From Anastatus disparis (lineage: Eukaryota > Arthropoda > Insecta > Hymenoptera > Eupelmidae), in NCBI GenBank assembly GCA_017163975.1, contig JAFFSR010000346.1, positions 1 through 64,000 of the forward strand: a stretch of DNA of 64,000 nt, in the 5' to 3' direction. This document shows positions 10,096 through 59,465 of the stretch, piece by piece. Positions within the stretch are counted from its first letter, which is position 1. Every line of letters starts with the position of its first letter. The notes under the pieces were generated by a model, which saw nothing but the letters and a program-made list of their open reading frames with translations, was not told the DNA's origin and made no database searches. The position numbers and the translations under genes were made by a program.

Positions 10096-10418
10096 TAATA
10101 ACTATAGCAAAATGAAGAGAAGCCGCATCTCGTAATAAAAAAGCAATATTTTCTTTGATAAGAAAGAATTCATTTTATTGCTTCGTTTTCAAGAAAACCT
10201 TGAAAAACTTAAATCATAGAGGTTAGGGTAGACAATTTGGTTTTTCAAGGTTTTCTTGAGAACGAAGCAATAAAATTAATTTTTTCTTATCAAAGATAAT
10301 ATTGCTTTTTCTGATACAAGATGCGGCTTTCTCTTCATTTTTTGATAAAGTTATTAGTTTTTGTAAAAAAATCATTTCTTTGATTAGAAAAGGACAGAGA
10401 TACGTGACCTCCTCTTAA
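10096..10418. mobile_element. Family-1 fold-back MITE, left end lost
   Basis: Palindromic element of the most abundant family in the window. Both arms carry a motif like AACCTTGAAAAACTTAAA or its complement, and the right terminus reads GTGACCTCCTC followed by TTAA at 10415-10418. The left terminal ~50 bases seen in intact copies (GAGGAGGTCACGTATCTCTG) are missing. No coding capacity. See the intact copy at 48737-49125. Confidence 0.85.
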
Positions 10419-11342
10419 AAAAGTCATAGAAACATTTTACTTGGCTCATTTTAAAGAGGACTATTAGAGTTTTAGAGCCCATTTTGTTTTTTTTATATCG
10501 TAATTTCCATAAAAATGGCATTCTCTTTTGTGTGGGCCAAAAAAATTAGTAAAAAAATTTTTTTTTACATCGCTATAAGCAATCAGAAAATGACTTTTTT
10601 CATACCGGACTTACTTTATTTCGAAGATTTTTCACCAATCTTTTGAACACTGTTTGGATTTTGAAGATGCGATCATAAGTTTCGAAGATATAAAACTTTT
10701 TATTTTGATAAATTTCACTCTAGGGTGGGCAAAAGCAATTAACCGGTAGTGTACTTCCAAAGATACAATTATTATAATTATACTTCTCGGACTTTAAAAT
10801 TATACAATTATTTGCGCAATATTTTAAATCGCACTGTATTTAGATTATTATAATAGTATCAAATAAAATCTCTATAATTAAATTATTAAATCAAGTGTAC
10901 TTATTTATTGAATCTAGCTAAATCATGGTAAGATTATTACGATTATATTTCTATATATACCTTTCAAAATTCAAGTGTATTTTTTCGTGATAGCGGTTCA
11001 AATCAATTAAGATTAGTAGAGTCTTTCTACCACTAGACTAACATTTGATAAAACGTTTATAAATCAATTACTAGCTTTATTCTTCACTTAATATTATAAT
11101 AAAACATATACACGTAGCCCTTTATAACATACAACATTTAATTCTTAATTTTCTCCTGGTGTAAGGCCAGGACTTCACAGATGATTAGATTTATTAAAAG
11201 ATCATTGAAGATTCACCTAAAGAAAACTTTTGAATGATTAAAATTATTTAGTATTTTAAATAAAAGTTATTAAAAAATTGCAAATTCTTGGATATTTTTT
11301 AAAAGTTGTAAAAGCAAGCTGGGGTTGTGTGCTTGCCCCTAG

Positions 11343-11343
<1 letters not shown>
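10419..11343. other. AT-rich gap with a dispersed structured repeat
   Basis: No gene is visible. Part of it (about 10985-11180, minus strand) is a diverged relative of 52570-52960. Shared landmarks are TCTAGTGGTAGAAAGACTC-like and GTCCTGGCCTTACACCAGGA-like hairpins. The rest is unrecognised. Confidence 0.4.

Positions 11344-11408
<65 letters not shown>
11344..11408. repeat. (TA)n microsatellite
   Basis: Uninterrupted TA dinucleotide run of about 65 bases. Open frames rich in Tyr-Ile over it are artefacts of the repeat. Confidence 0.98.
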
Positions 11409-11409
<1 letters not shown>

Positions 11410-11582
11410 CTGTACTATCGATTGCAAAGTGAAGAAACGACGTTATCAAAAAACGGTTTAAAACAAAAGATAATACTAAGTTGTAATGTGTATTTGGCTG
11501 GCAGGTGATTAACAATATTATCAAATTGTATTTGAATTTTAAAGTAATAAATAAATTAATTCTTTTTTCAAATAATATATAC

Positions 11583-11585
<3 letters not shown>

Positions 11586-11633
<48 letters not shown>
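11586..11633. repeat. (TA)n microsatellite
   Basis: Nearly pure TA run of about 48 bases. Confidence 0.97.
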
Positions 11634-11779
11634 CGCCCATTCTCTGTCAAATCAAAGGAAAAAAAAATTTTTCGCTAAAAATTGGTAAAATAGTTGTTTT
11701 CCATATTATGAACCACTCAGAATTTTTTTAGATTCCTGTAGTACATATTCTTAGAGGTACGGAGCTTCAAAGTTGAAAG

Positions 11780-13830
11780 TGTTCCTGGTCCTTTTAGACA
11801 AAATGACGATAATAATTCAGCACCTCGTCCTCTCAATGGTGAGTGTTTTATAAAAATATGGGAGAATGAAACAGTTTACAGAGGTTTGATACCAACATCC
11901 ACGAAGGAATTTATTTGAATATATAACATGCGAATACGTTGTTATTTCAATATCTAGTGATTCGTTACCAAACAGAGCGATTAAGTTTTTTAAATTTATG
12001 CGTGATTATGCTTATGAAGACCTGTGGGACATTATTAGCCGCATTTCTCAGAGCGCGTGGGAGTTATCTATAAATGATACTTTTGTTATTCGAATTAAAA
12101 ATTATCGTGAACCTACTGGTAGTGGACGTACTAAAATATTTAATTTTACTCTGTTAAATCTCGCTCCGTTATTAGAATAGTCAATGAAGATTCGAAATGT
12201 TTACCGCGGGCATTGGTAGTAGGTTTTGTTCACGCGGAAAAAATGGCAAGTGGTAAAAATTTTAGTGAAGAAGTTAAAAAGTTTAGGAAAAACGTTAGAA
12301 AATCTAATAGTAAAATGCAATTAGATTTAGCCAACAAATTAATTGAAAATGCTAAAGCGCAAATAGATCCGGAAATCAGGTACAGTATAAAAAAAATTAC
12401 TCAATTTCAAAATATATCCGAGAGAAAAAGGGGACAGCCATTGTCGTTCATGAATAAGATCGCGTCGATACCGTTGAAAGTCCAGTGTTTTAACGGATAT
12501 AAAATCTTAATGGAGAAGAAAATTAAAATTTCGTGTATATTAAATATTTTATATGACCCGGGAAAAAGTAATTTTGACACCATAACGAATATAACAGGTG
12601 TAGCAATGTATGAAAATTTTTGTGTACCTCGTAAAAAAGGTACTAAACGTTTAGGACTCCACAAATGTTCATCAAAATGCGAAAAAATGTAAAACTATTG
12701 GAGTTTTTGATGAAGATTTCGATTTAATTAAGTGTTCTGAATGTTTATTAGCGTTTTATGGGCGAACGTGCATTGAAAACCATATGAGAAAAAATTCGTA
12801 GGAAAAGAATTTAGCCGTTTGTGGCGCTGTAAACAAATGCAGTTCGTGCAAAAAAAATTATTTCTATAAAATATGGGAAGCATACTTATAATAGTTATTT
12901 CTGTGCTACTTATGTATGTACGCGTCCTTATAATCATAATTCTTTTATGTCGGTCATTAAAAAAAAAATCAGAGTTCAACGAAAACCCTAACTTGCATTT
13001 TTATTTTATGACTTCAAAGCCACCCGAAATAAGCAAGTAGGTGATAAGAACGACAAATTCATTCATAAGGTCAATTTGTGTGTTGCACAATTGTGTTGTG
13101 AAAAATGTATTGATTCTTCAATGGATACACCTTTTATATTTTGTGGTGGTGGGGAGATGTTCATTTTAAAAATAACGTTGTACAAAATTTTATAAATTTT
13201 ATATTTTGACTCAATCGAACGAGGTCGAAAAATATTGAAACTTTAATTTGTATGATGGGCAATCGATTTTAAAATATTTAGTAGAAAATATAAAGATAAC
13301 ACCGAAGATTGTCAGGAGTGGTACAAGCATAATGCTTATGAATCTCAATAATCACGTAAAATTTATAGATGGTTTAAATTATTTCTATATGCAGCTCTCG
13401 TATTTATCAAATGTTTTCGGCTTCGAAGCAAGTATACTTAAATGCACTTCTACTCATTTATTCAACACGAAAGAAAATGGAAAGTACATAGGTGTCATGT
13501 CTCACGTAAAATTTTATATGCCAGAAACAATAAATGTTTCCGATAAGAAAAAATTTTACGAGCAGCATAAGTAAATGACTATACATAATTACGTGTTCAA
13601 TTTTGAAAAGGAAGTGTTAAAATATTGTAAGAGCGATGTTGAAATGTTAAGAAAAGCTTGCTCCTTATTTATAAAAAGTTTTTGGAAGTCGGAGATATAT
13701 GTCCTTTCAACAAAGCTACCATGATTGCTAGTGCTTTTAGAAAAATACTTTTAGAAAAACGCAAAATAAGTACAACGTACAAAAGTATCTATGATGCACT
13801 CGAAAGAAGTCTAAACTTAAAATGTCTAAT
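11780..13830 (+). pseudogene. Broken family-B DNA polymerase (Polinton/viral type)
   Basis: Fragments in at least three frames read as one decayed protein-primed-type DNA polymerase. 11998-12180 and 12213-12692 resemble the long N-terminal region of insect Polinton-like polymerases, ending in a Cys/His-rich stretch (LHKCSSKCEKM) that continues out of frame. 13248-13574 contains YDGQSILKYL, matching the Exo II block, followed by a KFIDGLNYFYMQLS segment. From about 13590 another frame has YCKSDVEMLRKAC, matching the Exo III block (YxxxD). The palm-domain catalytic motifs are absent: after about 13830 the sequence becomes unrelated. Stops and frameshifts make it non-functional. It could derive from a Maverick/Polinton or from an endogenised adinto-like virus. 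No capsid, integrase or terminal inverted repeat was found nearby to decide. Confidence 0.72.
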
Positions 13831-14898: not shown

Positions 14899-15302
14899 TT
14901 AAGGGGTGTCCTTATACCGGCACAGAGATCTACCTTATCTACATTTGAATTATGTATTTTAATAAAAATTTAACTATTTTTGACTAAAATTTATAGAAGA
15001 GGCACATTCTTAACATTGTAAAGAATTTATTGCAACTTTAAAAGACAGAATAATAGTGAAAATGAAGACAAAAACTGCATAATACGATTATTCATAACTA
15101 CACTGAAAAGTTAATCGTATTAAGCAGTTTTCGCCTTTATTTTTACCTTTATATTGTCTTTTAACGTTGCAATAAATTCTTTGGCATGTTAAGAATGTGC
15201 CTCTCCTACGAATTTCAGTCATAAATAGTTAAATTTTTATTAAAATTCATAATTTAAATGTAGGTAAGGTAGAACTCTATGTCGGTATCAGGATTCCCGA
15301 AA
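14899..15302. mobile_element. Fold-back MITE at a TTAA site
   Basis: 404-bp palindrome. The left end reads TTAAGGGGTGTCCTTATACC. The right end read on the minus strand is TTCGGGAATCCTGATACC, so the right TTAA has mutated. The arms continue inward through a CATTCTTAACATTGTAAAG-like block and its complement. No coding capacity. Confidence 0.75.
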
Positions 15303-15340
15303 TTTTATATTTGTAAAGCATCTGCTGAAACTATGACTTA

Positions 15341-15998
15341 CAGGGAGAGTGTTTCGCCTTTGGATCGCCGATTGTGCTCAAATTTTGGAAATGTTTTCTG
15401 GATGCAGAAACATAAACGAGGGCAAAATTTTAGAGGCCAACGCTTAATATTTCCCTAGTTACAGGCCATTGAAGAAAATCACTAAAAAAGTTACCAGATC
15501 TTCAAACGCTTATAGTTTCTCAGCATTATTAGCTAGAAGCTTATATCTTTCTTTAAATAAAAACTGAGCTCAAATCCTTTCGAAATAGCACCTATACCAT
15601 CTCAAAATATTATTTTTCCCCAAAGTTAGAGCATAATAAAGATTGGACCTGGATTTTTTGTTTAAAACATTAATTAATAATAAAAGCTAAAATTGAGTTT
15701 AATCTTTATTATGCTATAACTTTGAGAAAAAATAATATTTCAATATGCTATAACTACTATTTCGAAAGGATTTAAGCTCAGTTTTCATTTAAAAAAAGGT
15801 TTAAGCTTCTAAATGCTGAGGAACTATAAGCGTTTGAAAATCTAGTAATTTTTTTAGTGTTTTTCTTTAATGGCCTGTAACTAGGAAAATATTAAACGTT
15901 GGTCTCTAAAATTTTGGCTTTCTTTATATTTCTGCATCCAGAAAACATTCACAAAATTTGAGCGAAAACGTAGACCCGAAGGTGAAACACTCTCCTTG
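15341..15998. mobile_element. Fold-back element with TTA target duplication
   Basis: 658-bp palindrome with termini CAGGGAGAGTGTTTCGCC and, on the minus strand, CAAGGAGAGTGTTTCACC. It is flanked by TTA on both sides (15338-15340 and 15999-16001). The 3-bp TTA duplication fits PIF/Harbinger-type insertion; that assignment is inference. The termini match the element at 56814-57207. Confidence 0.8.
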
Positions 15999-16001
15999 TT
16001 A

Positions 16002-16959: not shown

Positions 16960-19640
16960 ATTAACTTTGACAGACGTTCATGCAGTTCAAATGCCAGCGG
17001 TTTTGTGAATACGTCAGCTATCTGATTTTTAGAAGAAACCCAGCTGACATTTATCAGACTTCTTTCCAAACACTCTTTTACGTATTGTTCTTTTATTTCT
17101 GTCATATGTCTTAATTTTGTTCTACACCTTGTTAACAGTTATTGTATCCTTGATAAGTTCAAAGTCTTTCGTTCCTTTTAAGTATCTAAATTCTCTTCTA
17201 ACTGACTGCCAGTCATCTTCAGTGAGGTTGATTTGTTGAATGCCTAGAACATTAACAGCATAGGCAATATTTGTCCTGCTTGCATTGATTTATTATTTTC
17301 TTCACGCTTTCTTCTCTTGTTATTGTCCACCTGATTGGTTAACGTGGATATTCGTTGAGGAGGTAATTAATCAAAACTAAACTTCTTTAGCATTTTGCTT
17401 ATGCATTCTTCTTGCTTAAGAGGAGGTCGAGTATATCTGTCCTTTTCTGATTAAAGAATTGATTCTTTTACAAAAATTAATAATCGTCGCGAAAAATAAA
17501 AAGAAAGCCCTATCTCGTATAATAAAAGCTAGACTTTCTTTTATGAGGAAAAATTATTTGTATTGCTTCGTTTTTAAGAAAATCTTGAAAAATTTAATTA
17601 TCCATCCTAACTTTTTGCTACAATTATTAGTTTTTGAAAAAAAATAAATTCTTTGATTAGAAAAGAACAGAGATCTACGACCTGCTCTTAATGCTTAGTA
17701 TCCTTTTCTTTCTGTCTCACTTTATTTCTAAGCTTAAGAAATTTCTAGGCTCGCCAATTTCTGTCATTTTAAATTCTTCCTTTAAATTTGTCCTTATTCT
17801 TTCAATCATCTGTACATCATTGCAATCTAGCAGAATATTATCTACATACAATATCAAGATAAGAAATCCGTTCTCTTCTTACTGAGTAAATAGACAATGC
17901 TGATTGTTGAATGATCTAAGTTCATATTTCTTTACTGCCTCTTTGAATCTTTCATTTCATTATTTTGGACTGACTTTCAAACTGTATAAATTTCCAATAT
18001 ATACATCTTGTATAGTTTGATCCGTTCATAAATATCTCACTGTTCAAATATCTATTTAGAAAATCTGTCTTTACATCCTTTTTACATATTTCTAAATTTA
18101 GTTTGTTTGCCATTGCCAGTATAGATCTGATTAAAGGTGATCGTGAAACCAGTGCATATGTTTCTTACATATCATACTCATTTCTATCATTGAAACTATG
18201 AATTACTAATCTAGCTCTATAACTTATTTTACCGGCTTCTGTCTTTCTTGTAAATATCAATCTTGAATGTATAATGTTTGATCTTTTTCTGTCATTCATT
18301 ACAATTAATCTATCAACTAATTTCCATACATTATTCTTATACATAGATTCTAACTCTTCATTAATAGTTTTGGTCCATTTTGTTTTTGTTTATCTTTTGA
18401 CTTTGTAGCTTCCAAGTATGTACTCGGGTCACTATTTATTTCAGCTAATGAAACATAAGTTTCTTCATCCATTTTATTCTCTGTACTTGTTTGTGTTTCC
18501 ATTGGTAATTCAATCTGTCGTTTTGTTTTCTCTCTCTACGATTCTTGCACTTTATATTCAGTATTTTTTTTAACTTTTGTCGGTCGTCCTACTAATATTT
18601 TAATTTTCTCTCCTTCTCGTCCTCGTTCCTTTTTATCAGTCTTATTATTTTTGTTTCTCGGCCGTCTGACTGGTCTTTTGACTATCTCTCCCTCCGGTCT
18701 TTGTATTCGTGTCTCCAGTTTTTGTTTTCTCTATCTTCTCATACAAACGTCACAAACTATGTATCTTTATCTGTTCATCAATTTGTTTCTATTCTTGTAT
18801 ATCTGCCCTTGTAGACTAATTTGTCGTTGAATCGTACATTTTTACTTTCGTGTAATTTATATAAAACCCATTGTGTCTGAATGTATTATTTGCAGAGGTT
18901 CAATTGTTCTATGCCTGACTGTCTTAAATGAAAATTTGTTAAACTTTGCAATCATACACATTTTACAGTCTTTCAACGTATCATCAAATACAGCCTGTTT
19001 CAAATTTTTTATATTAGGAAATTTTTATTGTAATTTCCTTAAATAATAAACTGATGCATGGCCCATTCCAGTATGCTACAACATAGCGTAGTTGTTTGTA
19101 TTTATTTTCTCTGTCGCTTTTGTATTTTCAAGCTCACATTGAGATTCTTCACTGACTTCAATCTCATGTGATTTATAAATATTTATGTCTGCAATCTAAA
19201 TATTTTTCCTCTTTGACTGTCTGATTTCCTTCCTTTTCATTAAATTGATTATTTTCTTCAATATTCTGTTCTTCATACATTCTTCTTGTCGTTACATATG
19301 CTAGAACCTGTCTTTGTTATGAATTATTTTTTGTCGCATATGATTCAAACTCAATCAACCAATATGGCTGATTATATATTGATAAGGATAAAAGATTTTC
19401 ATTTAAGTATCCCGTGCATATAACTCTGTCTAAATTAATAAATTTTCTATCAGTTGTATTTATTTGCACGCTTCCTTCTATCTTATATTTGAAATTCGCG
19501 CTGCTGTCTTTATTTTCGCATTGAATTTTGTCCAGTTGTTTGATAAATGTCTTGAAAATCAACTCTGAATTTGTCAAATGTTCTATCGCATCGCTGTCAG
19601 CACTCTGTTCATTAGTCTTCTCGTTTTCTTTTAGGGGCCT
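16960..19640 (-). pseudogene. Copia pol remnant (protease to RNase H)
   Basis: Decayed minus-strand pol. The 19317-19640 part carries AIEHLTNSELIFKTF, aligning with the residues just after the Asp-Ser-Gly protease site of the young Copia at 44085-51962, followed by the linker before the integrase. Around 17830 the reverse-transcriptase box reads YVDN instead of YVDD, losing a catalytic Asp. Many stops and indels. It is interrupted by a family-1 MITE at 17416-17691. Confidence 0.8.
17416..17691. mobile_element. Family-1 fold-back MITE, internally deleted
   Basis: Bounded by TTAA (17416-17419 and 17688-17691) with family-1 termini GAGGAGGTCGAGTATATCTG and, at the right, CTACGACCTGCTC. Most of the right inner arm is deleted, so it is 276 bp rather than ~389. 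It lies inside the Copia pol remnant. Confidence 0.88.
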
Positions 19641-19826: not shown

Positions 19827-21961
19827 GGGACGTTTCATGTCAACTCGACTGACAAAAAAATAGAATTTGCTGAAAATCCGTGAAGAGGTTCCATTTGATT
19901 CCCAAAATATACAAAAAAATTTTTAGAGGCATAGGTCAAAGGGATTACGAGTAATAAGTAATAGAATATTGTGATTTTTCAAATTTTTTTGTTAAATTAC
20001 CAACCTAATTATTTTTTTCCTCAGAAACTAAGGATTTTAGAGATTCACTTATAAATATATTTATTGTTGCAAATAATGAGTAGAATCTACACAAATTTTT
20101 TTAAATCTCAGAATTGCTGTCTTCTGATTGGTTCATTTTGTACTTTCATGTAATTTTGAATTTCTGGTGTTCGACCAGGTTGATTTCACTCAGGTGGCAC
20201 TATGTTATGTCTTTTTATAATATCTTGAAGTGAGCTTTGTCTCATCTTAGGCATAGAACTGAGAGAAGAGCTATAGAACTTTGAATATTAAAAAATAACA
20301 TAGAATTTTCAATTTAAAACATATATACTGTGGATTTGGTTCTTCGCTTACAGATGATGCAATATACGAACAAATGATTTTTAAATATCTTGGAAGAGAT
20401 CTATTTCTTAATAATTTAATTATTAATTTAGAATCTGAATTGAAATATCAACTGTTCATTATTTAGACATCCTCAAAATACACTCGTAACCAAAACATAT
20501 TTATGTGTTTCAATAAATTGTTATTATAATGATTTTAAATATGTGTTGAAAAATTTTTTTTTCAAATTTTATTACCTTTATTATATACTTGAAATGAATG
20601 TCAAGTATATAATAAGGGTAATAAAACTATGAGATCTTACCATAATTTTTAACAAAGGATTTTTCAATCAATCAATTATTGGAATTTATAGTTATCGAAA
20701 TCAAATAAGAAAAAGGATCTGAATATTTTAATATTTAATATTTATAAAAATCTTAATTTATTGGATTACATAAAACTATTATATAAATAATCATTTCTAA
20801 ATGTATAATACGTATTTAAATAATTTTTCAATACATATGTATTATATATTTATAAACTCATCTTATTTTAAATATTTAAAATCATAATAACAATTTATTG
20901 AAGTACATAAATATGTTTTGGTGTGAGTGTATTTTGAGGATGTCTAAATAATGAACAGTTGATATTTCAATTCAGATTCTAAATTAATACTTAAATTATT
21001 AAAAAATAGATCTCTTTTAAGATATTTAAAAATCATTTGTTCGTATATTGCATTATCTATAATCGAAGAACCAAATCCACAGTATATATGTTTTAAATTG
21101 AAAATTCTATTTTATTTTTAAAGGGGATGTAAAATGGACACTACACCTGTACTCATAAATATTCACTATCTTCACATTTTATTGCAAAATTTTCAATAAA
21201 AAAATGCATTAGCTTGTAGTATGTACCATAAAGATTATTCGGTTAAATTTTTAAATAAATTCATTCATTAGTTATTGAGAATTTTGGGTTCCAAAATTAT
21301 TTATTAAAATTTTTCAATTTTGTTCAGGAATCCAAATATCTTAAAAGCTAATGAATGAATTTATTTGGAAATTTATCTAAATAATCATCATGGTACATAC
21401 TACAAGCTAATGCATTTCTTTTCTGGAAATTGAGCAATAAAATGGAAAAGAAGCTAATATTTATAAGTACAGGTGTAGTGTCCGTTTTACATCTCCTTAA
21501 TATTCAAAGTTCTATAGCTCTTCTCTCAGTTCTATGCCTAAGATGAGACAAAGCTCACTTCAAGATATTATAAAAAGACATAACATAGTGCAACCTGAGT
21601 GAAATCAACCTGGTCGAACACCAGAAATTCAAAATTACATGAAAGTACAAAATGAACCAATCAGAAGACAGCAATTCTGAGATTTAAAAAAATTTGTGTA
21701 GATTCTACTCATTATTTGCAACAATAAATATATTCATAAGTGAATCTCTAAAATCCTTAGTTTCTGAGGAAAAAAATAATTAGGTTGGTAATTTAACAAA
21801 AAAATTTGAAAAATCACAATATTCTATTACTTATTACTCGTAATCCCTTTGACCTATGCCTCTAAAAATTTTTTTGTATATTTTGGGTATCAAATGGAAC
21901 CTCTTCACGGATTTTCAGCAAATTCTATTTTTTTGTCAGTCGAGTTGACATGAAACGTCCC
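19827..21961. mobile_element. 2.1-kb long-inverted-repeat (fold-back) element
   Basis: Ends GGGACGTTTCATGTCAACTC (left) and its exact complement (right), between TATATA-type flanks. The arms are nearly identical for about 0.9 kb, e.g. 19860-20350 against 21940-21060. No coding capacity. The right arm is interrupted by a 383-bp MITE at 21118-21500. Superfamily not determined. Confidence 0.85.
21118..21500. mobile_element. Fold-back MITE nested at TTAA
   Basis: Palindrome with left end AGGGGATGTAAAATGGACAC and minus-strand right end AGGAGATGTAAAACGGACAC. TTAA is present at both ends (21118-21121 and 21497-21500). The corresponding site in the other arm of the host palindrome (20288-20291) is an uninterrupted TTAA, showing insertion with TTAA duplication. 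Confidence 0.82.
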
Positions 21962-22288: not shown

Positions 22289-22290
22289 TG

Positions 22291-25134: not shown

Positions 25135-25523
25135 TTAAGAGCAGGTCGAATATATATGTCCTTTTCTAATCAAAGAATTGAGTTTTTTGCAATAACTAAT
25201 AACTTTAGCAAAAAATAAAGAGATAGCCCTATCTCGTATTACAAAACGGAATATTTTCTTCGATGAGAATGAATTGATTTTATTGTTTCGTTTTCAAAAA
25301 ATCCTTGAAAATCCTAAAACATAGAGGTCAGGGTAAACAATTTGGTTTTCCAAGGTTTTCTTGAAAACGAATAGGTAAAATCAATTATTTCTCATTAAAG
25401 AAAATATTGCTTTTTGTAATACGAAATGGGGCTATCTATTTATTTTTTGTTAAAGTTATTAATTACTGCAAAAAAAATAATTCTTTAATTAGAAAAGGAC
25501 GGAGATACGTGACCTTCTCTTAA
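25135..25523. mobile_element. Family-1 fold-back MITE, full length
   Basis: 389 bp including TTAA at both ends. Termini are GAGCAGGTCGAATATATATG and the minus-strand GAGAAGGTCACGTATCTCCG. The empty site in the other Copia copy is TTAA at 38232-38235, so insertion duplicated TTAA. Confidence 0.93.
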
Positions 25524-29029: not shown

Positions 29030-31095
29030 TTTAACTCATTTAATAAAAATAGAAAAAATTATATATGAGTTAATGAATTTATATTTCGTAAGTAAAACTT
29101 ATCAATACAAACATTAGAATCATAATTTAATAATATGAAACTTGACTTTGGCATTTTTAACACTATGTAATCTAAATCTGCACTTAAGTCACACTATTGT
29201 ATTATATTATCTCCATTGACATAGGTACGAATTCAGTAACGTAACTCAATAATCGTTAAGAAGGGGCCGAACTATCTGTCTCTGTCTAATAGCGTTTTTC
29301 ATTATTTATTTAAACACTATCCTTTATAACAAGAAAAAAATAGCAGCCCCCGCTAGATATTAGTATAATTAATAAATTTTGTAATAACAATCAAATTTTT
29401 TACCGCATAGTTTTTGACTAATTAGAGACCTACTATCAATTAAAATATAACCTATCTTTCTTTTGGTAGGTCTCTAATTATTCAAAAACCACGCAGTAAA
29501 AAAATTTGGTTGTTATTACAAAATTTACTTATTATATTAATATCTAGCGGGGGCTGCTATTTTTTTCTTGTTATACCGGATAGTGTTTACATAAATGATG
29601 AAAAACGCTATTAGACAAAGACAGATAGTTCGGCCCCTTCTTAAGCTGGAAGTTATAGTCTTTACTCTGTTCTCAGTTATTCTATCTATGTTCTTCTTAC
29701 CCTTTTTCCATAAGAAGAACAAGGATAGAGTATTTGAGAACTGAGTAACGACTATTACTTCTAGCCTTAGACTTGAGTTGGGTTTATTAATTAGAGCCAT
29801 AAGAAAAATTATGTTAAACGCTATTTCATCACTAAAGAAAAGTAACATGTAATATATTTTGTAAATAAAATAACGAATATTAGTTTTGAAACAGTACAAC
29901 GAATATTAGTATAAAAAAATCCTATATTTATTAATTTTATATATTAGGTAAAGATTTATTTCTAACGAAATTATAGTTTATTCTTACTTTAAAAGTATAA
30001 TGATGTTAACCTTTTTATATTTTTACTAAAAAATTGAAACCTAAAAATAAATCTACTAAGATACCACTGATAATAAATAATATGAACACCACATAATATT
30101 TTGCTAACAGTGAGAATTAAACAAGTTTTAAGGTCATTGATGATATTAATGACTTTATATTATCAAAGGTTTTGGATTTATTATCTTAACCTTATACAAA
30201 TTATAATTCGAATATTTCGCCCTAATGTTTTATCGAATGATCTTTTTAAACATCTAAAATAATAATTACAACGAACAATTTAGTATGGAATCAATTTTTA
30301 CTATACGATGTTATTTTAATATTGTAATATAGCACATAAAATAATATCATCGTCACTACAATTTCGTTAGAAATAAATCCTCACCTAATATATAAAATTA
30401 ATAAATATAAGATTTTATTTTTTATACTAATATTCGTAATACTGTTTCAATACTAATATTCGTTATTTTATTTACAAAATATTTTACATGTTACTTTTCT
30501 TTAGTAATGAAATAGCGTTTAACATAATGCTTTTTATGGCTCTAATTAATAGATCCAATTCAAGTCTAAGCTAAAAGTTATAGTCGTTACGCAGTTCTCA
30601 AATGCTCTATCCTTGCTCTTCTTATGGAAAAAGGGTAAGAAGAACATAGATAGAATATCTGAGAATTGAGTAAAGACTATAACTTCCAGCCTAACGATTG
30701 TTACTTGAGTTACGTTACTGAATTCATACCTATGTCAATAGAGATAATATAATACAATACATGACATAAGTGCAAACTTTATTTATAACCTTTAAAACGA
30801 TTACAAATGTCATAAAATAATTGCGAATAATATGCGCTTTTCAACAAAAAAAATATATTGTAATATTAATATGAGACTTGTTAACAAGATTTCAATGTAC
30901 TTGCATGCTCACATTTCTTTATAGAGTGTAAAAATAGACCACATAGCTCTCGCAAACGAGTGACTTAAGTGCAGATTTAGATTACATAGTGTTAAAAATG
31001 CCAAAGTCAAGGTTCATATTATTAAATCATGATTCTAATGTTTGTATTGATAAGTTTTACTTACAAAATATAAATTCATTAACTCATATGTAATC
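29030..31095. mobile_element. ~2-kb long-inverted-repeat element
   Basis: The outer arm 29060-29250 (ATGAGTTAATGAATTTATAT landmark) is complemented by 31090-30700, and the inner arm 29645-29960 by 30690-30370. The centre is AT-rich and non-coding. The right arm has an extra ~190-bp segment (about 30770-30960). The left arm is interrupted by a family-2 MITE. Exact termini uncertain. Confidence 0.75.
29256..29644. mobile_element. Family-2 fold-back MITE
   Basis: 389 bp with TTAA at both ends and termini GAAGGGGCCGAACTATCTGT. The arms contain AGCAGCCCCCGCTAGATAT and GTAGGTCTCTAATTATTCA or complements. The matching site in the other arm of the host palindrome (30691-30694) reads TTAG on the minus strand, i.e. 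an empty site one mutation from TTAA. Confidence 0.93.
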
Positions 31096-31246: not shown

Positions 31247-31634
31247 TTAAGAGGAGGTCGAGTATATCTGTCCTTTTCTAATCAAAGAATTAATTTTATT
31301 ACAAAAACTAATAATTTTAGTAAAAAATTAAGAGAAAGTCGCATTTTGTATCAAAAAAAGCAATATCTTCATTGATGAGAAAAAATTAATTTCATCGCTT
31401 CGTTTCCAAGAAAACCTTGAAAAACTTAAAACACAGAGGTTAGGGTAAACAATTTGGTTTTTCAAGGTTTTCTTGAAATCGAAGCAATAAAATGAATTTT
31501 TTCTTATTAAAGAAAATTTTGCTTTTCATTATACGAGATGCGGCTTTCTCTTTATTTTTTGCTAAAGTTATTATTTTTAGCTAAAAATTAATTATTTGAT
31601 TAGAAAAGGACAGAGATATGTGACCTCCTCTGAA
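31247..31634. mobile_element. Family-1 fold-back MITE
   Basis: Left TTAA at 31247-31250 with GAGGAGGTCGAGTATATCTG. The right end GTGACCTCCTC is followed by TGAA, a mutated TTAA shared with the next element. Confidence 0.9.
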
Positions 31635-32710
31635 GGAGGTTCTCGCATGAAAATTCAGAGACTACACAATAAAATAAAGTTTCTTATTATTTAAAATGTC
31701 CCGAATCCGATCGTATGCTTAATTTTTGAGCTTGATTTGCAAAATTTAATAAAATCAGAACTCAAAGTTTGAATTTTTTTGTACAGGCTCTTATGGGACT
31801 GTGAATAAAATAAATCAAAATCGAGTATTTGCAAAGCAGGGAGTGATTTTCTGAAAAACAGACGGATGAACAAATGTCTAAAAGAAAGTTTCCTCTTTCA
31901 AATGATATCTAGTAAATTACTTATTGCCGTGGTAAATATTGAGATGTTACACGTTAAAGTTAATAAACGTCTTTGCGACCAGATTAAGAGATGCTATGTT
32001 TTTCGCATCACTCAACAGCGACAAGGAAAGTGCGCGAATTTTGAAAGTTTTAAATTCTCATAACAAAATACAATTAATAATATTATACATAAATATATAT
32101 TATATTATTTTAAATTTATGATAAACTATTCTATTTCTGCTATTTTTACATAATTTCTTTAAATTTTATTACATTATTATCAAAATATTAAAATAAAAAT
32201 AAGCAATCTTAACCTCAAAGCAGAAACCGGTCACAGACGCCGTGTTACATACATATGGGCCAAAAGTACTGGAACGGCGAAATAACTCTGCGGGATTGTA
32301 TTTTAGGAGAAAAAGCTTAAAACAAAAGATAGAGGATATTTTTTTGACTATTCGACGGTGATAATGACCATGACCTTGACCATAACCTTGAATGTCATTT
32401 CAAGGTCAAGTTAATTTCTTTAAATGGGAACCCATAATTTTCACCTCAGAAATAAAAAGAGCGGAAAATTTTACGTTTGGATATGTATTTACGGTCCACA
32501 CTGTATGTGTATACATTGTACTACGTGATCGAATTCATGATAATTTATTTACATTCTAAGCGCGTAACGTGCAAAAAATGCAATGTTCATAGTATATTTG
32601 AACGTAAAAAATAATAATTTAATTTTCGAAAATAAATATATATATATAAATATCTATATTCACTTTTTTATCGACTTTGACCTTAATTGTACTCGCAAGA
32701 ACCTCCTTAA
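31631..32710. mobile_element. TTAA-site TIR element, 1.08 kb
   Basis: Left end GGAGGTTCTCGCATG directly after the (mutated) TTAA. Right end on the minus strand is TTAA then GGAGGTTCTTGCGAG. The interior has TGACCTTGAC-type repeats around 32360-32410 but no coding frame. Diverged, so less certain than the palindromic families. Confidence 0.55.
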
Positions 32711-33508: not shown

Positions 33509-33617
33509 TTAAGAGGAGGTCACGTATCTCTGTCCTTTTCTAATCAAAGCATTGAGTTTTTGTAAAAAAATAATTTCTTTGATTAGGAAAGGACAGAGAT
33601 ACGTGACCTCCTGTTAA
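33509..33617. mobile_element. Miniature family-1 fold-back MITE
   Basis: 109 bp consisting of only the terminal ~45 bases of each family-1 arm (GAGGAGGTCACGTATCTCTG and complement) around a short loop. TTAA lies at both ends. It shares its right TTAA with the next copy. Confidence 0.92.
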
Positions 33618-33762
33618 GAGGAGGTCACGTATCTCTGTCCTTTTTCAATCAAAGAATTGAGTTTTTTACAAAAACTAATGACTTTAGCAAGAAATGAAGA
33701 GAAAGCCGCATCTTGTATCAAAAAAAGCAATATTTTCTTTGACAAGAAAAATAGTATATTAT

Positions 33763-34625
33763 GCGTCAAGGCCGCAAAACGTATTATTCTTGGCGAGTGC
33801 ATGCTGAGGGGCTGAGCGTAGCGAGGCCGTTCCAGCTGCACGAGCAAGAATGATACGTTTGTGGCCGTGACTGCATATACTTTTTTTTTGCCCGAAGGCC
33901 GCTAAGCGGAAGCTGGGGCGGAGCCCCCCCGCCTATAAAAAAAATAATTGATAATTCTTAAAATATGAAAGATTTTGATAAAAAAATTCAATCATAAATA
34001 ATAAATAATTAATAATTCTTAAAATACAATAAAAAAATTTAATAAAAAGAATTTGATTATAAAAACCACTAATAATTGTTAAAATATAAAATTAAAATTA
34101 AACAAAAATACAATAAAATATAAATAAAGCTAAACTATAAAAATTATAATTAAAAAATATTATTTAAAAAAAGTAAGAAAAAGTTTTAAAAAATTTAAAA
34201 ACTAATAATTGTTAAAATATAACATTAAAATTAAACAAAGATACAACAAAATATAAAACGAAAACTAAACTATAAAAATTATAATTAAAAAATATTATTT
34301 GAAAAAGAAAAAAAAGTTTTAACACACGAAACTTGTAACTATGTCTTTCTCTTGCTCTTTCCTTTTCTTTCATAATATACATATATTGAGTCTAAGTTAT
34401 TCGTTAACGTATACAAAGTATAGTATATGTGAGAAAAGGATAGTGATATTAAGGGAAGCGAGCAGTTCATTAAGTTTATTTCCAAGAATCAGCGACGTCG
34501 AGAACGTTTTTCTGCGACCTTTTATTAAAATAATACATTGGATATATACATTTTTCTTTTGCGGCCTAGGACAAGAATACACTATTTTGTGCTCCGTATA
34601 CAGGACACAAAAATTTATTTTGCGG
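33763..34625. mobile_element. 0.86-kb insertion with GGCCGCAAAA motifs
   Basis: Interrupts the family-1 MITE. It begins with a GC-rich palindrome (33770-33889; AAGGCCGCAAAACGTATTAT and a GTGGCCG-containing complement), followed by GGGGCGGAGCCCCCCCGCC and then an AT-rich body. Further GGCCGCAAAA motifs occur near 34560 and 34620 on the minus strand. GACAAGAAA and GACAAAAAA at the junctions may be a ~9-bp target duplication. No coding frame supported; superfamily unknown. Confidence 0.55.
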
Positions 34626-35218
34626 CCTGAGGACAAAAAATTAATTTTATTGCTTCATTCTCAAGAAAACCTTGAAAAACCAAATTGTTCACCCTAACCT
34701 GTATGATTTAAGTTTTTCAAGGTTTTCTTGAAAACGAACACTGAGAGAAAATTCATGCTAATAGAGCATGCGAGCTGCCATCTATGCGAGCATATAAAAC
34801 ATTGATACAAATATGACAGGCCGTGAGAAGCTCTATTAGTATTGGATTACCTTATACTAAAAAAGATGGTATGGAGAGTAACTAAAGCATGAACGGCATT
34901 CACTGATGACTCGCGTGGTATACTTCGATGACTCCCCACTCTCATATCCTTTGTTTGCTTGAGTCGCCTCCTCTTTTGGGTGGCGACGCGAGCAAACACG
35001 GCTGGTCTATACCCAAAATTATGTTGCAAATTTCTTTAACGTATTTTTGTAGCGTGAATCTTTTATTTCTTTTCTTTTTTTATGAAGGGAGATACGTTAT
35101 AAATATAACCTGTTAAACTTTTTAACTTTAAATAATTAATTTTTAACTTAAAATTTAATTATTTTAAACCGCTGGGGGGCAGATGAGCATGTACGATTTT
35201 ACGCCAGAGATATTTCGG

Positions 35219-35298
35219 AGTAGCGTTGGTCTAGTGCGTAACGTTCACGCTTTTCCTTTTGAGTACGCGAGTTCAACTCTCGGCTAGGATCACTTTTT
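35219..35298 (+). ncRNA. tRNA-like sequence, left arm
   Basis: Has an A-box-like TTGGTCTAGTGCG and a B-box-like GAGTTCAACTC, with a 4-bp T-arm stem around a 7-base loop. Nine T residues follow within a few bases, which would serve as a polymerase III terminator. The acceptor stem does not pair convincingly, so this is a tRNA relic or pol III promoter rather than a functional tRNA. Confidence 0.5.
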
Positions 35299-35861
35299 TT
35301 TTAATTTTTTTTTTATTGTTTTAATATTTTTTATTCCTTTTTATATTTATTTTTTTAGATTTTGTATTTTTTAAATAATTTTAAAATTTAATTTTTCACA
35401 AGTACGCTTGTTTTTTCAATGAAAATTTTTTAAAAATAAATTATTCTTTATAGGTAGTAATTACAAATATTGATAATTAAATAATAGTGATGTTTATTTT
35501 ATAATAGTATAGTTTAATTTATTTATAATTTAGTTTATAAAATTCACAATAAATTACAATAAATAAATAAAACTGAGTTATTATTATTTATGTTATAATA
35601 TATATTGTATATTGAAATATGTTTATAAAGACAAAATTGAACTATAGTATTGTAAATATCACTATTATTTATTTATTAATATTTTAAATTATTTTCTATA
35701 TGAAATAATTTATTTAAAAATATTAATAAAAAAAACGAGCATATTTTAAGTAACTTGTGAAAAAATAGATTTTAAAATTAATAAAAAAATAGAAAATAAA
35801 AAAAATATAAATAAAAAAAAGCAATAAAAACTATTGAAATAATAAAAAAATATTAAAAAAA

Positions 35862-35940
35862 AAGACCCTAGCCGAGAGTTGAACTCGCGTACTCAAAAGG
35901 AAAAGCGTGAACGTTACGCACTAGACCAACGTTACTTCGA
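35862..35940 (-). ncRNA. tRNA-like sequence, right arm
   Basis: Inverted copy of 35219-35298. Both internal boxes and the downstream T run (seen as an A run at 35856-35864 on the plus strand) are kept, with a few differences such as TAGGGTC for TAGGATC. Confidence 0.5.
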
Positions 35941-36650
35941 AATATCTTTGGCGTAAAATCGTACATGCTCATCTGCCCCCCAGCGGTTTAAAATAATTAA
36001 ATTTTAAGTTAAAAATTAATTATTTAAAGTTAAAAAGTTTAACAGGTTATATTTATAACGTATCTCCCTTCATAAAAAAAGAAAAGAAATAAAAGATTCA
36101 CGCTACGAAAATACGTTAACGAAATTTGCAACATGATTTTGGATATAGACCAGCCGTGTTTGCTCGCGTCGCCACCCAAAAGAGGAGGCGACTTGAGCAA
36201 TAGAAGAATGTCATAGTTAGCAGTAAAGAAAGAATAGTGGACAAGCCACGTTTACTTCCTTCACGTCCCATGAGAGGATACAGCGCTAGCTATCGAAGGA
36301 TATTAGAGTGGGGAGCTACTAAAGCATGTAAACAAACAGTTTTTGGATAGCACAAACCTCGTAAGAGTAGATGGCGCTGTTATTAAAGCATAGGATATTA
36401 CTTACTAACTTTGGATGCGTAGACTACATGCTCTATTGGCATGAATTTTCTCTCAGTGAAGCAATAAAATTAATTCTTTCTCATCAAAAAAAATATTGCT
36501 TTTTTTGATACAAGATGCAGCTTTCTCTTCATTTCTTGCTAAAGTTATTAGTTTCTGTAAAAAACTCAATTCTTAGATTAGAAAAGGACAGAGATACGTG
36601 ACCTCCTCTTAAAGCGCATTTTTAATAAAAATTTAATTGAATAACGTTAA

Positions 36651-37430: not shown

Positions 37431-37809
37431 TTAAGGAGAGACACAAGTAAAACACACAAAAAATGAGGTTTTTTAGTTTTAACTTTTGATCCGTAGCACC
37501 TACAATGTTATCCATGCGTAATGTTGTTCAAAATCATCTAAAGAATCTATAAAAAAATTTTCAGCTCGAAATATTAAAAACTGTGGGACTAGTTCCATTT
37601 TAACGCTTCCTCACTTATCACTGAATCGAGCAGTCGTTAAAATGGAACTAGTCTCACAGTTTTTAATATTTCAAGCTGAAAATTTTTTTATAGATTCTTT
37701 AGATGATTTTGAACAACATTACGCATGGATAACATTGTAGGTGCTACGGATCAATAGTTAAAACTAATAAACCTCATTTTTTGTGTGTTTTACTTGTGTC
37801 TCTCCTTAA
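37431..37809. mobile_element. Family-3 fold-back MITE
   Basis: 379 bp, TTAA at both ends, termini GGAGAGACACAAGTAAAACA. The inner arms share CATTACGCATGGATAACATT. The empty site in the other Copia copy is TTAA at 27901-27904. Confidence 0.92.
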
Positions 37810-39211: not shown

Positions 39212-39600
39212 TTAAGAAGGGGCCGAACTATCTGTCTTTGTCTAATAGCGTTTTTCATCATTTATGTAAACACTATCCGGTATAACAAGAAAAAAATAGC
39301 AGCCCCCGTTAGATATTAGTATAATTAGTGAATTTTGTAATAGCAACCAAATTTTTTACCGCATAGTTTTTGACTAATTAGAGACCTACTAGCAATCTAG
39401 AATATAACCTATCTTCTTTTGGTAGGTCTCTAATTATTCAAAAACTACGCAGTGAAAAAATTTGGTTGTTATTACAAAATTTACTTATTATACTAATATC
39501 TAGCGGGGGCTGCTATTTTTTTCTTGTTATACCGGACAGTGTTTACATAAATGATGAAAAACGCTATTAGACAAAGACAGATAGTTCGGCCCCTTCTTAA
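39212..39600. mobile_element. Family-2 fold-back MITE
   Basis: 389 bp with TTAA at both ends, near-identical to 29256-29644. The empty site in the other Copia copy is TTAA at 23119-23122. Confidence 0.94.
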
Positions 39601-43130: not shown

Positions 43131-43518
43131 TTAAGAGGAGGTCACGTATCTCCATCCTTTTCTAATCGAAGAATTAAGTTTTTGCAAAAACTAATAACTT
43201 TATCGAAAAATGAAGAGAAAGACCCATCGCGTATTAAAAAAAGCTATATTTTCTTTAATAAAAAAGAATTAATTTTATTGTTTCTTTCTCAAGAAAACTT
43301 TGAAAAACCAAATTGTCCAACCTAACCTCTATGTTTTAAGTTTTTCAAGGTTTTCTTGAAAATGAAGCGAGAAAATCAATTCTTTCTTATTGAAAAAAAT
43401 ATAGCTTTTTTTGATACGCAATGGGGCTTTCTTTTTATTTTTCGCTAAAATTATTAGTTTTCGTGAAAAAATCAGTTTGTCGATTAGAAAAGGACAGAAA
43501 AAGTCGACCTGCTCTTAA
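43131..43518. mobile_element. Family-1 fold-back MITE
   Basis: 388 bp with TTAA at 43131-43134 and 43515-43518. Left end GAGGAGGTCACGTATCTCCA; right arm slightly diverged. Confidence 0.92.
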
Positions 43519-48736: not shown

Positions 48737-49125
48737 TTAAGAGGAGGTCACGTATCTCTGTCCTTTTCTAAGCAAAGAATTGAGTTTTTTACAGAAACTA
48801 ATAACTTTACCAAAAAATGAAGAGAAGGCCGCATCTGGTATCAAAAATAGCAATATTTTCTTTGATAAGAAAGAATTAATTTTATTGCTTCGTTTTCAAG
48901 AAAACCTTGAAAAACTTGAATCATAGAGGTTTGGTTGGACAATTTGGTTTTTCAAGGTTTTCTTGAGAATGAAGCAATAAAATTAATTTTTTCTTATCGA
49001 AGAAAATATTGCTTTTTTTGATAGAAGATGCGGCTTTCTCTTCATTTTTTGCTAAAGTAATTAGTTTTTGTAAAAAAATAATGTCTTTGATTAGAAAAGG
49101 ACAGAAATACGTGACCTCCTCTTAA
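48737..49125. mobile_element. Family-1 fold-back MITE inside Copia gag
   Basis: 389 bp including TTAA at each end. The termini GAGGAGGTCACGTATCTCTG and complement are the best preserved of the family. The two arms pair over nearly the whole length, with a short loop near 48935. It splits gag. Counting one TTAA only, the two gag halves are in the same frame, so the insertion was a clean TTAA duplication. Confidence 0.97.
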
Positions 49126-55770: not shown

Positions 55771-55783
55771 ATATATATATATA

Positions 55784-56130: not shown

Positions 56131-56170
<40 letters not shown>

Positions 56171-56367
56171 TATACATATATATAACTTGTGAGGTTAAAT
56201 ATCCATATATTACATGCATAATTATAATAAGAGCAAGGTGGGGTAGTCTAAAAACATCGAACGCGCTCTTATACTCGCGCATGGCTACGCCCGCCGCAAG
56301 CACATACACATGTATAATCAATTATAAAGAGTGCACACAGTTAAAGCAAGATTCGATGTAATATAAG
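55784..56367. other. Non-coding DNA with repeat fragments
   Basis: Contains a twice-repeated CCCACCAATCAAA motif (55950-55995), a GAGACTGCCACACACCCG block shared with 19690-19730, and a TA run at 56138-56182. No gene is supported. Confidence 0.5.
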
Positions 56368-56380
56368 ATGAATATTTCTT

Positions 56381-56553
56381 ATTACAGCATTGAAACTACT
56401 TATTATTATGAGAAGTGGGAGCACGTTGATGCTGTGCGGCTAAGAAGTAACGGCGAATCGAGCGTCGGCGGCTCGAATGCGAGCTTACAAGATGAACAGA
56501 AATATACTGAGGAATCACTATTCTGCACGGAAAGAAATATTGAAGACTTGTAG
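56381..56553 (+). CDS. Possible terminal coding exon
   Basis: An acceptor-like TTTCTTATTACAG precedes a frame of about 57 codons with balanced, GC-containing codons (EKWEHVDAVRLRSNGE and on) ending ERNIEDL and a stop. No upstream exon, family or polyadenylation signal was identified. It may be chance. Confidence 0.25.
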
Positions 56554-56813
56554 TCCCACGAAATCGAGGCCTACCTTAGTACATCGATTTAGAACAAACA
56601 TAAGCAGTAGTTCAGACGTTAAAAGTCATACCAACCGCCTTAATTAGTGCAACGAAACGTACGACACGAATTAACTCATTATTATATTGTGTGAGTCTTA
56701 TCTTATGTTGTTTAAAAGTCTCATCACCTGCAGCGGCTAATAAGACTCATACGAAGGACTGTATTAGCGGGCGCATGCCCCCTTCCAGTCCCGTAGCGTG
56801 TTGAACTGATTTA

Positions 56814-57207
56814 CAAGGAGAGTATATTAAAAAATGCTAATGAAATAGGGTAAAAATTTGATCGTATGTTACATGCTAAAAATATTGATAAATATGTAGT
56901 AATTTTCAATTAGGCACAATTTTTCAACCACAGAAGCTTTATTGATGCAATAAGGCTTAAATTGAAGCTCTTAACTTGTACTTTTTTCTTTTTCTCATAC
57001 ATTTTTCTGTAAAATTTTTAGTTGTTTAGCTATTCAAGTTCTTGTAAACGCTTCTTTTCTCTATATTTTTGAAGAAATGTCTATGTTCTCCGTCTATAGG
57101 GCCTATTAGCACAAAAGAAAAAACACGGGTTCATTTTTTTCCATCAAAGAATCATATCCTGCAGTTTCAGCCAAATCCGTTTCCCGGAGGTCAAATACTC
57201 TCCTTGT
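56814..57207. mobile_element. TIR MITE with TTA target duplication
   Basis: 394 bp. Ends CAAGGAGAGTATATT and, on the minus strand, CAAGGAGAGTATTTGACC, flanked by TTA (56811-56813 and 57208-57210). Same terminal signature as 15341-15998. Confidence 0.78.
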
Positions 57208-57210
57208 TAG

Positions 57211-57838
57211 TCTCACTCACTGGCCACTTTCTGTCCCATGCATTGTTTTTAATTCGTTTCGTATTGGACTTGTTTGCTAGGGCTGCTACGTAGACGTACG
57301 AGAATCCCGTCATTGATTTCTTTATAAGTTGGTGCGCAAGAATTAATTTAATTATATTATTTGGCTACATAATTCAATTAATTATTTTAAACTGAACTTA
57401 AACATTCTGTTACTACAATAGAATAACTTAAAACATAAGTAAATAGAATTGTAAAATCTTATGTATAACAAGAAAATCCAAATGATATTTGTGTATTTAA
57501 GAATATAATTTTGATTCTTAAATTTAATTCTCATGTTTTATTCTATGAAGTATTTTTTTTTAAACATAGAAATAATTATTTTAAAATCTAACTAATGAAA
57601 GTATTCGAATTAATTGTTTAATTAAAAAGTATTTTTTCTTTTATTCATTTTTTTTAATTGAACATAAAAGTAACTTGTAATACATAAATATATAACCATT
57701 TTTTTTTAAAATATTTCAAATACTTGAAATTTATCTTTTAAAAAAACTGTTTATAGGAATTATCATAATACTAGAACTAATCGTAAAGTACATACTATTG
57801 ATTTTACTATTTCAAAAATAAGGTTTGAATTTAAATTC
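57211..57838. other. AT-rich DNA, nothing recognised
   Basis: No coding frame or repeat supported. Confidence 0.5.
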
Positions 57839-59465
57839 TTAAGGTGGTTCACTCGGTAAGAAAGAGAAAGCTAGCTGTGAGAGAAAGAGATAGCGCTCAT
57901 ACACTGCCGCCGAGATACTTTTGCCCCCCTTCGTCTAAAATCGACTCATCTAAAAAGTTTTATAACTCTGGAAAAAATGGTCGTAGCCTAAAAATTCCAA
58001 CGGGATTCGAAAGATTGTTCAAAATTCTTTCAAAAATTATTGGTTTGATATAAAAAAAAAACCATTTTTTTCGTATCTCTTATCCTTGTTTAAAAATAAA
58101 TTTTTTTTAACTTTGTTTTGACTTTGTAAAATAGTGTTCAATTTTAGTAGAAATCGTTACATTAATACAAAACCAAATAGATTTTGAAGATCATATTTCG
58201 ACAATAAAAATGCAATGTCGAACGTCTAGATTCGACCTTTTAAGAAGGGGCCGAACTATCTGTCTTTGTCTAATAGCGTTTTCCATCATTTATGTAAACA
58301 CTATCCGGTATAACAAGAAAAAAATAGCAGCCCCCGCTAGATATTAGTATAATAAGTAAATTTTGTAATAACAACCAAATTTTTTCACTGCGTAGTTTTT
58401 GAATAATTAGAGACCTACTAGCAATCTAGAATATAACCTATCTTTTTTTGGTAGGTCTCTAATTATTCAAAAACTACGCAGTGAAAAAATTTGGTTGTTA
58501 TTACAAAATTTATTATACTAATATCTAGCGGGGGCTGCTATTTTTTTCTTGTTATACCGGATAGTGTTTACATAAATGATGGAAAACGCTATTAGACAAA
58601 GACAGATAGTTCGGCCCCTTCTTAAATCAGAGTTATAAGATTTTATATTTAAAAATAAGGTTTTGTTTAGATATATGAATATCTTTGAATTTAAGAGGAA
58701 TAGAAAAATTTGTCAGAGAGAAAAAATGTTCCTTTTTGGTCAAATAATAATAATATATAATAAAAAATGGATTTCGGAAAAAAGATTTTTTTTTTGCCTT
58801 TTTTACCCACGTTGTTCAATATTTTAAAGATATCAAAATTTCATTACATTCCAACAAAAAAAAAATTTTTTTCGAAATCAATTTTTTTGTAAAATGGTTT
58901 TTTTCATATCAAATCAATAGTTTTTGAAAGAATTTTGAACAATCTTTTGAATCCCGTTGGAATTTTTAGGCTACGACCATTTTTTCCAGAGTTATAAAAC
59001 TTTTTAGATAAGTCGATTTTAGACGAAGGGGGGCAAAAGTGTCTCGGCGGCAGTGTATGATCCAGTTGCGCATGCGTAACAACGTCAATGTGAACGAAAC
59101 ATGCATCGTTTATCTAATATAATTACATTTTAGAAACACTTTATCTCTTTAATAAAACGATGAATTTACGTCAATTTTGTTGGAAAATGTTTATTATTAG
59201 TTCCTTTATATATGTTTAAATTTTCAATTACACTTTGAATGTAGTTTATGAGATATTGCGATTAACAGCTACGAAATGTAAAAATTCCAATATATATAGA
59301 TATACTTCCAATGTAATTTGTGAAACTTTGAACATCGATTAATCAAAAACGAAGCGATGAAATGTTCTGAAATTTTAATATGATATTCACATTGCCTTTT
59401 TTGAACTATACCTACAATTTCAAGAATATCTTGAGAAAACACGTTAGTCGAGTGAACCACCTTAA
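57839..59465. mobile_element. TTAA-site TIR element, 1.63 kb
   Basis: TTAA then GGTGGTTCACTCG at both ends (complement at right). Inverted arms share CCGCCGAGATACTTTTGCCC-like and GTCGTAGCCTAAAAATTCCA blocks (57900-58050 against 59060-58910). Non-coding. A family-2 MITE is nested at 58240-58625. Confidence 0.85.
58240..58625. mobile_element. Family-2 fold-back MITE
   Basis: 386 bp with TTAA at both ends, near-identical to 29256-29644 and 39212-39600. Confidence 0.94.

Follow-up and report, generated by a model that had tools for sequence, protein, structure and literature searches.

Palindromic elements inserted at TTAA in Anastatus disparis: probable Kolobok-type MITEs and an apparently intact coding element of the same superfamily

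Introduction

Two superfamilies of DNA transposons, piggyBac and Kolobok, are users of the tetranucleotide TTAA as insertion target. Kolobok elements are described as leaving a TTAA target site duplication (TSD) next to termini of the form 5'-RR...YY-3' (R, purine; Y, pyrimidine), unlike piggyBac (PMC9587614). Their transposases carry a C/DxxH signature downstream of the second catalytic D, and nearly all lineages have a zinc finger ahead of the last E; in some lineages the first D is followed by a further, almost invariant finger of CCHC type, the KolobokE lineage has a lambda-exonuclease-like domain downstream, and no zinc finger lies between the second and third catalytic residues of MuDR, P and hAT (PMC9587614). 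Here we report on a stretch of 64,000 bp (the window; G+C content 29.9%) at positions 1 to 64,000 of contig JAFFSR010000346.1 from the hymenopteran Anastatus disparis, which carries seven families of elements inserted at TTAA, named A, B, C, D, E, F and H (A-H below). We propose that A-H are miniature inverted-repeat transposable elements (MITEs) of Kolobok type, moved by one or more Kolobok transposases encoded elsewhere in the genome, a reading to which we assign a probability of about 0.85.

Elements of this kind are already known. The T2-MITEs of Xenopus, which have been assigned to Kolobok, form 16 major subfamilies with a TTAA target and AGGRR ends (PMC6004289). They resemble A-H in the multiplicity of subfamilies, in the target, in a purine-rich end motif (one H end, TTAA-AGGGG, comes close to AGGRR), in being non-autonomous and in being presumably served by Kolobok transposases. 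They differ in their host and, in a comparison of printed ends only, in that the families described here are mostly near-complete palindromes starting with GR and not with AGG (PMC6004289). The families of A. disparis look new. The insect Kolobok MITEs of iMITEdb are likewise non-autonomous and have a mean length of about 386 bp (PMC5199201), to be compared with 379-389 bp for the full-length copies of A, B and C.

Results and discussion

Seven families inserted at TTAA

Self-comparison of the window, together with scans for open reading frames (ORFs) and protein domains, revealed a satellite array with units of ~152 bp, a copia-type retrotransposon and many palindromes. A-H elements, which are short, hairpin-like and non-coding, make up 6,539 of the 64,000 bases (~10%; Table 1). 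An initial reading made from the letters of the window (hereafter the sequence-only reading) had recognized at least six families of fold-back or terminal inverted repeat (TIR) elements at TTAA; the starts that it listed lie where it had placed them, and we count seven families. Family A, starting TTAA-GAGGAGG, has seven two-ended copies and one truncated copy, family B, starting TTAA-GAAGGGG, has three copies, and C, D, E, F and H are present once each. In A, B, C, F and H the palindrome is near-complete and about 380-405 bp long; D and E have short TIRs. The D copy spans 1,627 bp, corresponding to an element of ~470 bp plus a foreign insert of 1,154 bp (57902-59055). Family F, doubtful from the window alone, could be confirmed as the seventh because a second copy, at locus L083, has TTAA at both ends.

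TTAA is found at 28 of the 31 element ends in the window (25 of the 28 tabulated ends, to which the two H ends and the one on the right of the truncated A copy are added). Two of the three remaining ends are in fact one site seen from both sides, where A3 abuts E (31631-31634, TGAA/TTCA), and the third belongs to F, whose right end is decayed (ATTT). Alignment of filled sites with homologous segments of the window provided five empty sites, all of them single-copy. Four have an intact TTAA, at 38232 (A2), 27901 (C), 23119 (B2) and 20288 (H, in the other arm of the palindrome 19812-21976), and the fifth, at 30691 (B1), reads TTAG, exactly as the sequence-only reading had it. Its use of a gag frame as a sixth site also holds: A7 measures 389 bp with one TTAA counted twice, and once the net 385 bp (1 mod 3) is subtracted the two gag ORFs lie in the same frame, so that the insert explains their offset, by arithmetic on the coordinates of ORFs that were not joined. 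Comparison with copies elsewhere in the genome adds two further cases: the window copy of E has one TTAA where the copy at L073 carries a palindrome of another family, M (ends TTAA-GGGTATGG), and the window copy of D has one TTAA where the copy at L069 carries a piggyBac element. A-H are inserted precisely at TTAA, which is duplicated on insertion.

Terminal purines and the choice between Kolobok and piggyBac

Two purines follow TTAA at 29 of the 31 ends, the exceptions being the right ends of A4 (CA) and F (CG). The opening bases are GA in A and B, GG in C, D, E and F, and GG or AG in H, and A-H termini have the form 5'-RR...YY-3'. It is because a TTAA target is combined with 5'-RR termini that A-H point to Kolobok and not to piggyBac (PMC9587614). 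A common terminus TTAAGRRG had been put forward initially; what stands of it is the purine start, mostly GR, and GRRG is slightly too narrow, as it fails for D (GGTG) and one H end (AGGGG), and also for M (GGGT) and for K (GGAT), a coding element described below.

Could A-H instead belong to piggyBac, as MITEs whose ends are unusual and which a piggyBac transposase moves? This superfamily also targets TTAA and is present in the genome, where the long D copy at L069 holds pieces of a DDE_Tnp_1_7 domain between D ends. However, the L069 piggyBac is nested: it has CC-type ends of its own, TTAA-CCTCTAGACCGCCGGGA, and the window D copy shows a single intact TTAA at that very point, which leads us to reject L069 as a coding partner of D. 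piggyBac differs from A-H both in its CC-type ends (CCTCTAG...) and in its DDE_Tnp_1_7 transposase, and the nested domain is the only DDE_Tnp_1_7 that we saw, no genome-wide search for this domain family having been made. TTAACCC is absent from the window, CCY follows TTAA at 8 of 1,982 sites, and no family starts in this way, in line with the initial statement that the ends are not of the usual piggyBac CCC type. Finally, RR termini are described for Kolobok and not for piggyBac (PMC9587614). A piggyBac origin of A-H is therefore very improbable, and of the two TTAA users considered by the sequence-only reading the evidence favours Kolobok.

A more trivial explanation is that the common start arose by chance or ascertainment, TTAA being frequent in AT-rich DNA (991 occurrences in the window) and similar starts being picked out. 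It is true that the ends N4, N1 and L007, considered below, were found with an A-type pattern, so that their starts are not independent. However, outside the elements GR follows TTAA at only 76 of 1,787 sites and GRRG at 4 of 1,787 (window, both strands); GG also opens K, which was identified by way of its transposase, and M, which came to light as an insertion within an E copy; and the boundaries of the elements are fixed independently by the empty sites. For family A, the genome-wide proportion of ends lying after TTAA (see below) already refutes chance, which we regard as hardly credible for the whole set.

Family ends in the genome

Counts of A, D and E ends were made over the assembly of 939,413,245 bp in 399 contigs. 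For the exact 23-bp end of family A we counted 6,681 occurrences (control, 0), of which 6,383 (95.5%) lie directly after TTAA. For family A only, this proportion answers the possibility, raised at the outset against a TTAA-specific system, that copies elsewhere in the genome show a different target duplication. D ends were counted 94 times (control, 0) and E ends 258 times (control, 5). The shorter pattern TTAAGAGGAGG is found 15,833 times, versus 219 for its reversed control, and catches other families too: three of the eight loci fetched with it (L001, L004 and L007) are not family A. In loci fetched for transposase domains, and not by a TTAA pattern, 6 of 8 ends of A, B or H are TTAA. Exact matches to A and B ends are absent from viral contigs, and those to A ends are absent from bacterial and archaeal genome contigs. 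With 6,681 exact ends of one family in a 939-Mb genome, elements of this kind are a main builder of the genome.

L001 and L004 represent two further families of TTAA palindromes, of about 540 and 398 bp, which start with GAGGAGG. The ORFs around the L004 copy look Helitron-like.

K, an apparently intact element with a Kolobok-type transposase

The genome contains many genes with the Pfam domain PF20700 ('Mutator-like transposase'), which matched in all 114 scored sequences, of 1,429 first-look candidates. One of them, a 612-aa ORF, lies in element K, of which we found three complete copies of 3,179 bp (both TTAA counted; L071, L072 and L081), ~98% alike. They are bounded at each end by TTAA-GGATGCC, where the similarity stops, and a scan for TIR pairs flanked by TTAA returned exactly one pair in each of the three loci. 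A fourth locus, L080, has the left end only. Subtraction of coordinates places a listed PF20700 match 827-830 bp downstream of 9 of the 16 exact K left ends.

K was aligned with 17 homologues, selected among 120 listed of the 227 found. In this alignment D225, C260/C263/H284/C290, D327/D329, C353xxH356 and E500 are invariant, and H433/C436/C444 are nearly so over the same 18 sequences. The invariant residues match the first D, the CCHC finger, the second D, the CxxH signature and the E published for Kolobok (PMC9587614). K has a TTAA TSD with RR termini and, by motif only, a DDE transposase with C/DxxH and a zinc finger before the last E; it is apparently an intact coding element with a Kolobok-type transposase. 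The likeness to KolobokE and other Kolobok lineages, as far as these are described, extends to TTAA TSD, RR/YY termini, a DDE domain with CxxH and two zinc fingers, and to the domain layout: of nine PF20700 ORFs, selected mostly for length among 30 loci (L039-L068), eight have a YqaJ/lambda-exonuclease-like domain downstream of the transposase (PMC9587614). These data suggest that PF20700 'Mutator-like transposase' proteins include Kolobok transposases, which would be of help in annotating elements of this type, and that the name of the family may mislead annotation.

In one of these loci, the PF20700 and YqaJ ORF at L062:247-3522 also has an N-terminal match to Herpes_teg_N (2e-09), unusual for a transposon protein.

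Search for coding partners of A-H and the weight of the Kolobok reading

Candidates for long, transposase-coding copies were drawn from listings of A, D and E ends, those of A and of E covering the first 100 places. Six long copies with A-, D-, E- or N4-type ends were examined (L069, L070, L073, L083, L084 and L085), and none of them encodes a Kolobok transposase. Besides the nested piggyBac of L069, the D and E copies L070 and L073 have large palindromic inserts and no ORF of at least 100 aa, and L083, L084 and L085 are each a pair of separate MITEs, the longest ORF (123 aa) being in L083. Widely spaced pairs outside these six are C2:487791-494269 for A, C4:8170426-8175242, C231:2342021-2354545 and C24:718869-720209 for E, and C371:6702256-6704017 for D. 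An A end beside a PF20700 gene in L041 turned out to belong to an ordinary A copy. Proteins with a THAP domain (PF05485; 145 of 150 scored matched, of 356 candidates) are repeated in the genome; five groups of THAP loci were rejected as partners, the edges common within them (such as ATGAGGCT..., ATGGGGGTG..., ATTCGCGATC...) being without TTAA. A profile search against solved structures gave no matches.

Several observations weigh against a Kolobok origin of A-H. This search turned up no element that encodes a transposase between ends of A, B, C, D, E, F or H type, and K and A-H have in common only TTAA and the opening purines. K, the element with visible ends, consists of a transposase without YqaJ, a difference from KolobokE as described (PMC9587614). 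Pfam calls the PF20700 domain 'Mutator', and no homologue name shown says Kolobok. TTAA ends were seen in only one PF20700 subfamily, that of K: no TTAA-TIR pair encloses the domain in the 30 loci L039-L068 (1,500-bp flanks; control words AATT 0, TATA 1 and ATAT 0), the 2,053-bp block common to L079 and L082 has neither TTAA nor TIR at its ends, and the pairs L062/L064 (6.5 kb) and L068/L074 (4.1 kb) are alike to the limits of the DNA compared. Lastly, two of the ends met in loci fetched for transposase domains are not TTAA, those of L014 (TAAA) and L050 (CGTT, a weak match).

The same scan over 60 loci (L009-L068) returned one weak AT-rich pair (L025). A looser scan gave weak pairs starting with AA in L044, L056, L062 and L064 (11-12 of 16 letters), which we rejected as ends, the domain not being enclosed.

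We nevertheless favour Kolobok for A-H, an assignment that draws on target, ends, motifs and domain layout as set against the published descriptions. A DDE transposase of this superfamily, encoded by elements at other sites of the genome, would bind the element termini, cut the element out and join it into a TTAA site, which would be duplicated. We infer that A-H owe their movement to transposases of the superfamily, that the chemistry is of the cut-and-paste type and that K is active. K has the same target and type of ends and not the end sequences of A-H, and in this search no particular transposase could be linked to family A or to the others. A genome with apparently intact copies would make the link between Kolobok transposase and palindromic MITEs testable there.

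One transposase or several

The sequence-only reading had gone further and suggested one transposase lineage moving many unrelated palindromes. Alignment of termini, which it had recommended, agrees with this for A, B, N4 and L007 and does not show it for C, D, E, F, H, M and K. In 66 pairwise comparisons, for which results are those of the best 14 of 66 pairs, the termini of A, B, N4 and L007 align over ~30 bp (z 3.9-11.2; at most 1 in 1,000 shuffles); N4 (L004/L083/L085) was seen at both ends and L007 at one end, both in loci fetched with the A pattern. The other seven have no comparable similarity beyond the opening purines, either to A and B or to one another, with a best z of 1.7 among themselves and of 1.6 versus the A/B group. 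The top pairs outside A/B/N4/L007 were L007 with N1 (29 of 1,000 shuffles) and D with E (66 of 1,000).

In an earlier test, for which other representatives were used, A versus B scored 20 of 2,000 shuffles; its next lowest pair, the right end of D versus an H end (43 of 2,000), is not above expectation for that many pairs. In an ungapped test over 17 bases, A and B have 14 matches; of 3,000 random windows 8 score as high, possibly with A copies among them. The similarity does not extend inwards: blastn aligned an A copy with an N4 copy over the terminal 40 bp only, and A and B gave no match in the window self-comparison (pieces of at least 60 bp).

Judging from their sequences, a single transposase, or sister transposases, probably moved A, B and the two further end types, and different Kolobok transposases encoded in this genome probably moved C, D, E, F and H. 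The idea of one lineage is partly supported, in that it holds at the level of the superfamily and not for a single transposase. A stricter version, in which a single transposase moves all families through one common recognition sequence, finds support in the ~30 bp that A, B, N4 and L007 share despite unmatched interiors; nothing comparable at the termini of the other seven, together with the coexistence of many diverged PF20700 transposases, makes it decidedly unlikely.

We also considered that one Kolobok transposase might repeatedly turn unrelated sequence into near-perfect palindromes, the ~30-bp ends of A, B, N4 and L007 being kept and the interior replaced by a new inverted duplication. 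We hold this to be a speculative and rather unlikely scenario; if true, a recurrent palindrome-forming route (e.g. template switching, or hairpin repair during excision or gap repair) would found new MITE families.

Positions of the elements and neighbouring features

Table 1. A-H elements in the window (positions count from its first base; a hyphen separates TTAA from the start of the element).
Element	Position	Strand	Ends, target site and remarks
A8, family A, truncated at low side beside satellite array	10091..10418	-	TTAA-GAGGAGG at 10418
Family F palindrome	14899..15303	+	TTAA-GGGGTGTCC; decayed right end ATTTCGGG
A1, family A, 276 bp	17416..17691	+	both ends TTAA
Family H palindrome, in one arm of palindrome 19812-21976	21119..21500	.	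TTAA-(A)GGGGATG and TTAA-GGAGATG
A2, family A	25135..25523	+	homologous empty site 38232
B1, family B	29256..29644	+	TTAA-GAAGGGG; homologous empty site 30691, TTAG
A3, family A, in left target site of E	31247..31634	+	common site now TGAA
Family E element	31631..32710	-	short TIR GGAGGTTCTYGC; TTAA at right end
A4, family A, mini copy, 109 bp	33509..33617	+	TTAA 33614-33617 common to A4 and A5
A5, family A, in parts 33614-33751, 34635-34738 and 36458-36612	33614..36612	+	two foreign insertions between the parts
Family C palindrome	37431..37809	+	TTAA-GGAGAGACAC; homologous empty site 27901
B2, family B	39212..39600	+	homologous empty site 23119
A6, family A	43131..43518	+	end sequences
A7, family A, within gag part of copia-like retrotransposon	48737..49125	+	net insert of 385 bp fits frame shift
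Family D element	57839..59465	+	TTAA-GGTGGTTCACTCG; own ~470 bp plus 1,154-bp insert 57902-59055 holding B3
B3, family B, inside the foreign insert of D	58240..58625	+	end sequences

The satellite array occupies positions 1-10058 of the window, and its edge lies ~30 bp from the truncated copy A8. A 182-aa ORF at 12144-12692 has no Pfam match; it looks like the N-terminal portion of a DNA polymerase of Polinton type. No TTAA was seen at the edges of the large palindromes 15332-16007, 19812-21976, 22284-22924, 29058-31094 and 34919-36236. The last of these is contained in one of the inserts that split A5 (34739-36457, inverted ends CACTGAGAGAAAATTCATGC), and each of its arms has a tRNA-like stretch (GGTCTAGTGCGTAACG...GTTCAACTCTCGGCTAGGATC on one of them), for which ARAGORN and Rfam (at gathering scores) returned no match.

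The foreign insert of D has inverted ends CACTGCCGCCGAGA and an apparent TA duplication by comparison with L069, and is perhaps a palindrome of Tc1/mariner type. The copia-like element whose gag is split by A7 extends over 44085-51962; the 319-bp repeats at its two sides are 100% identical, and the element is probably young.

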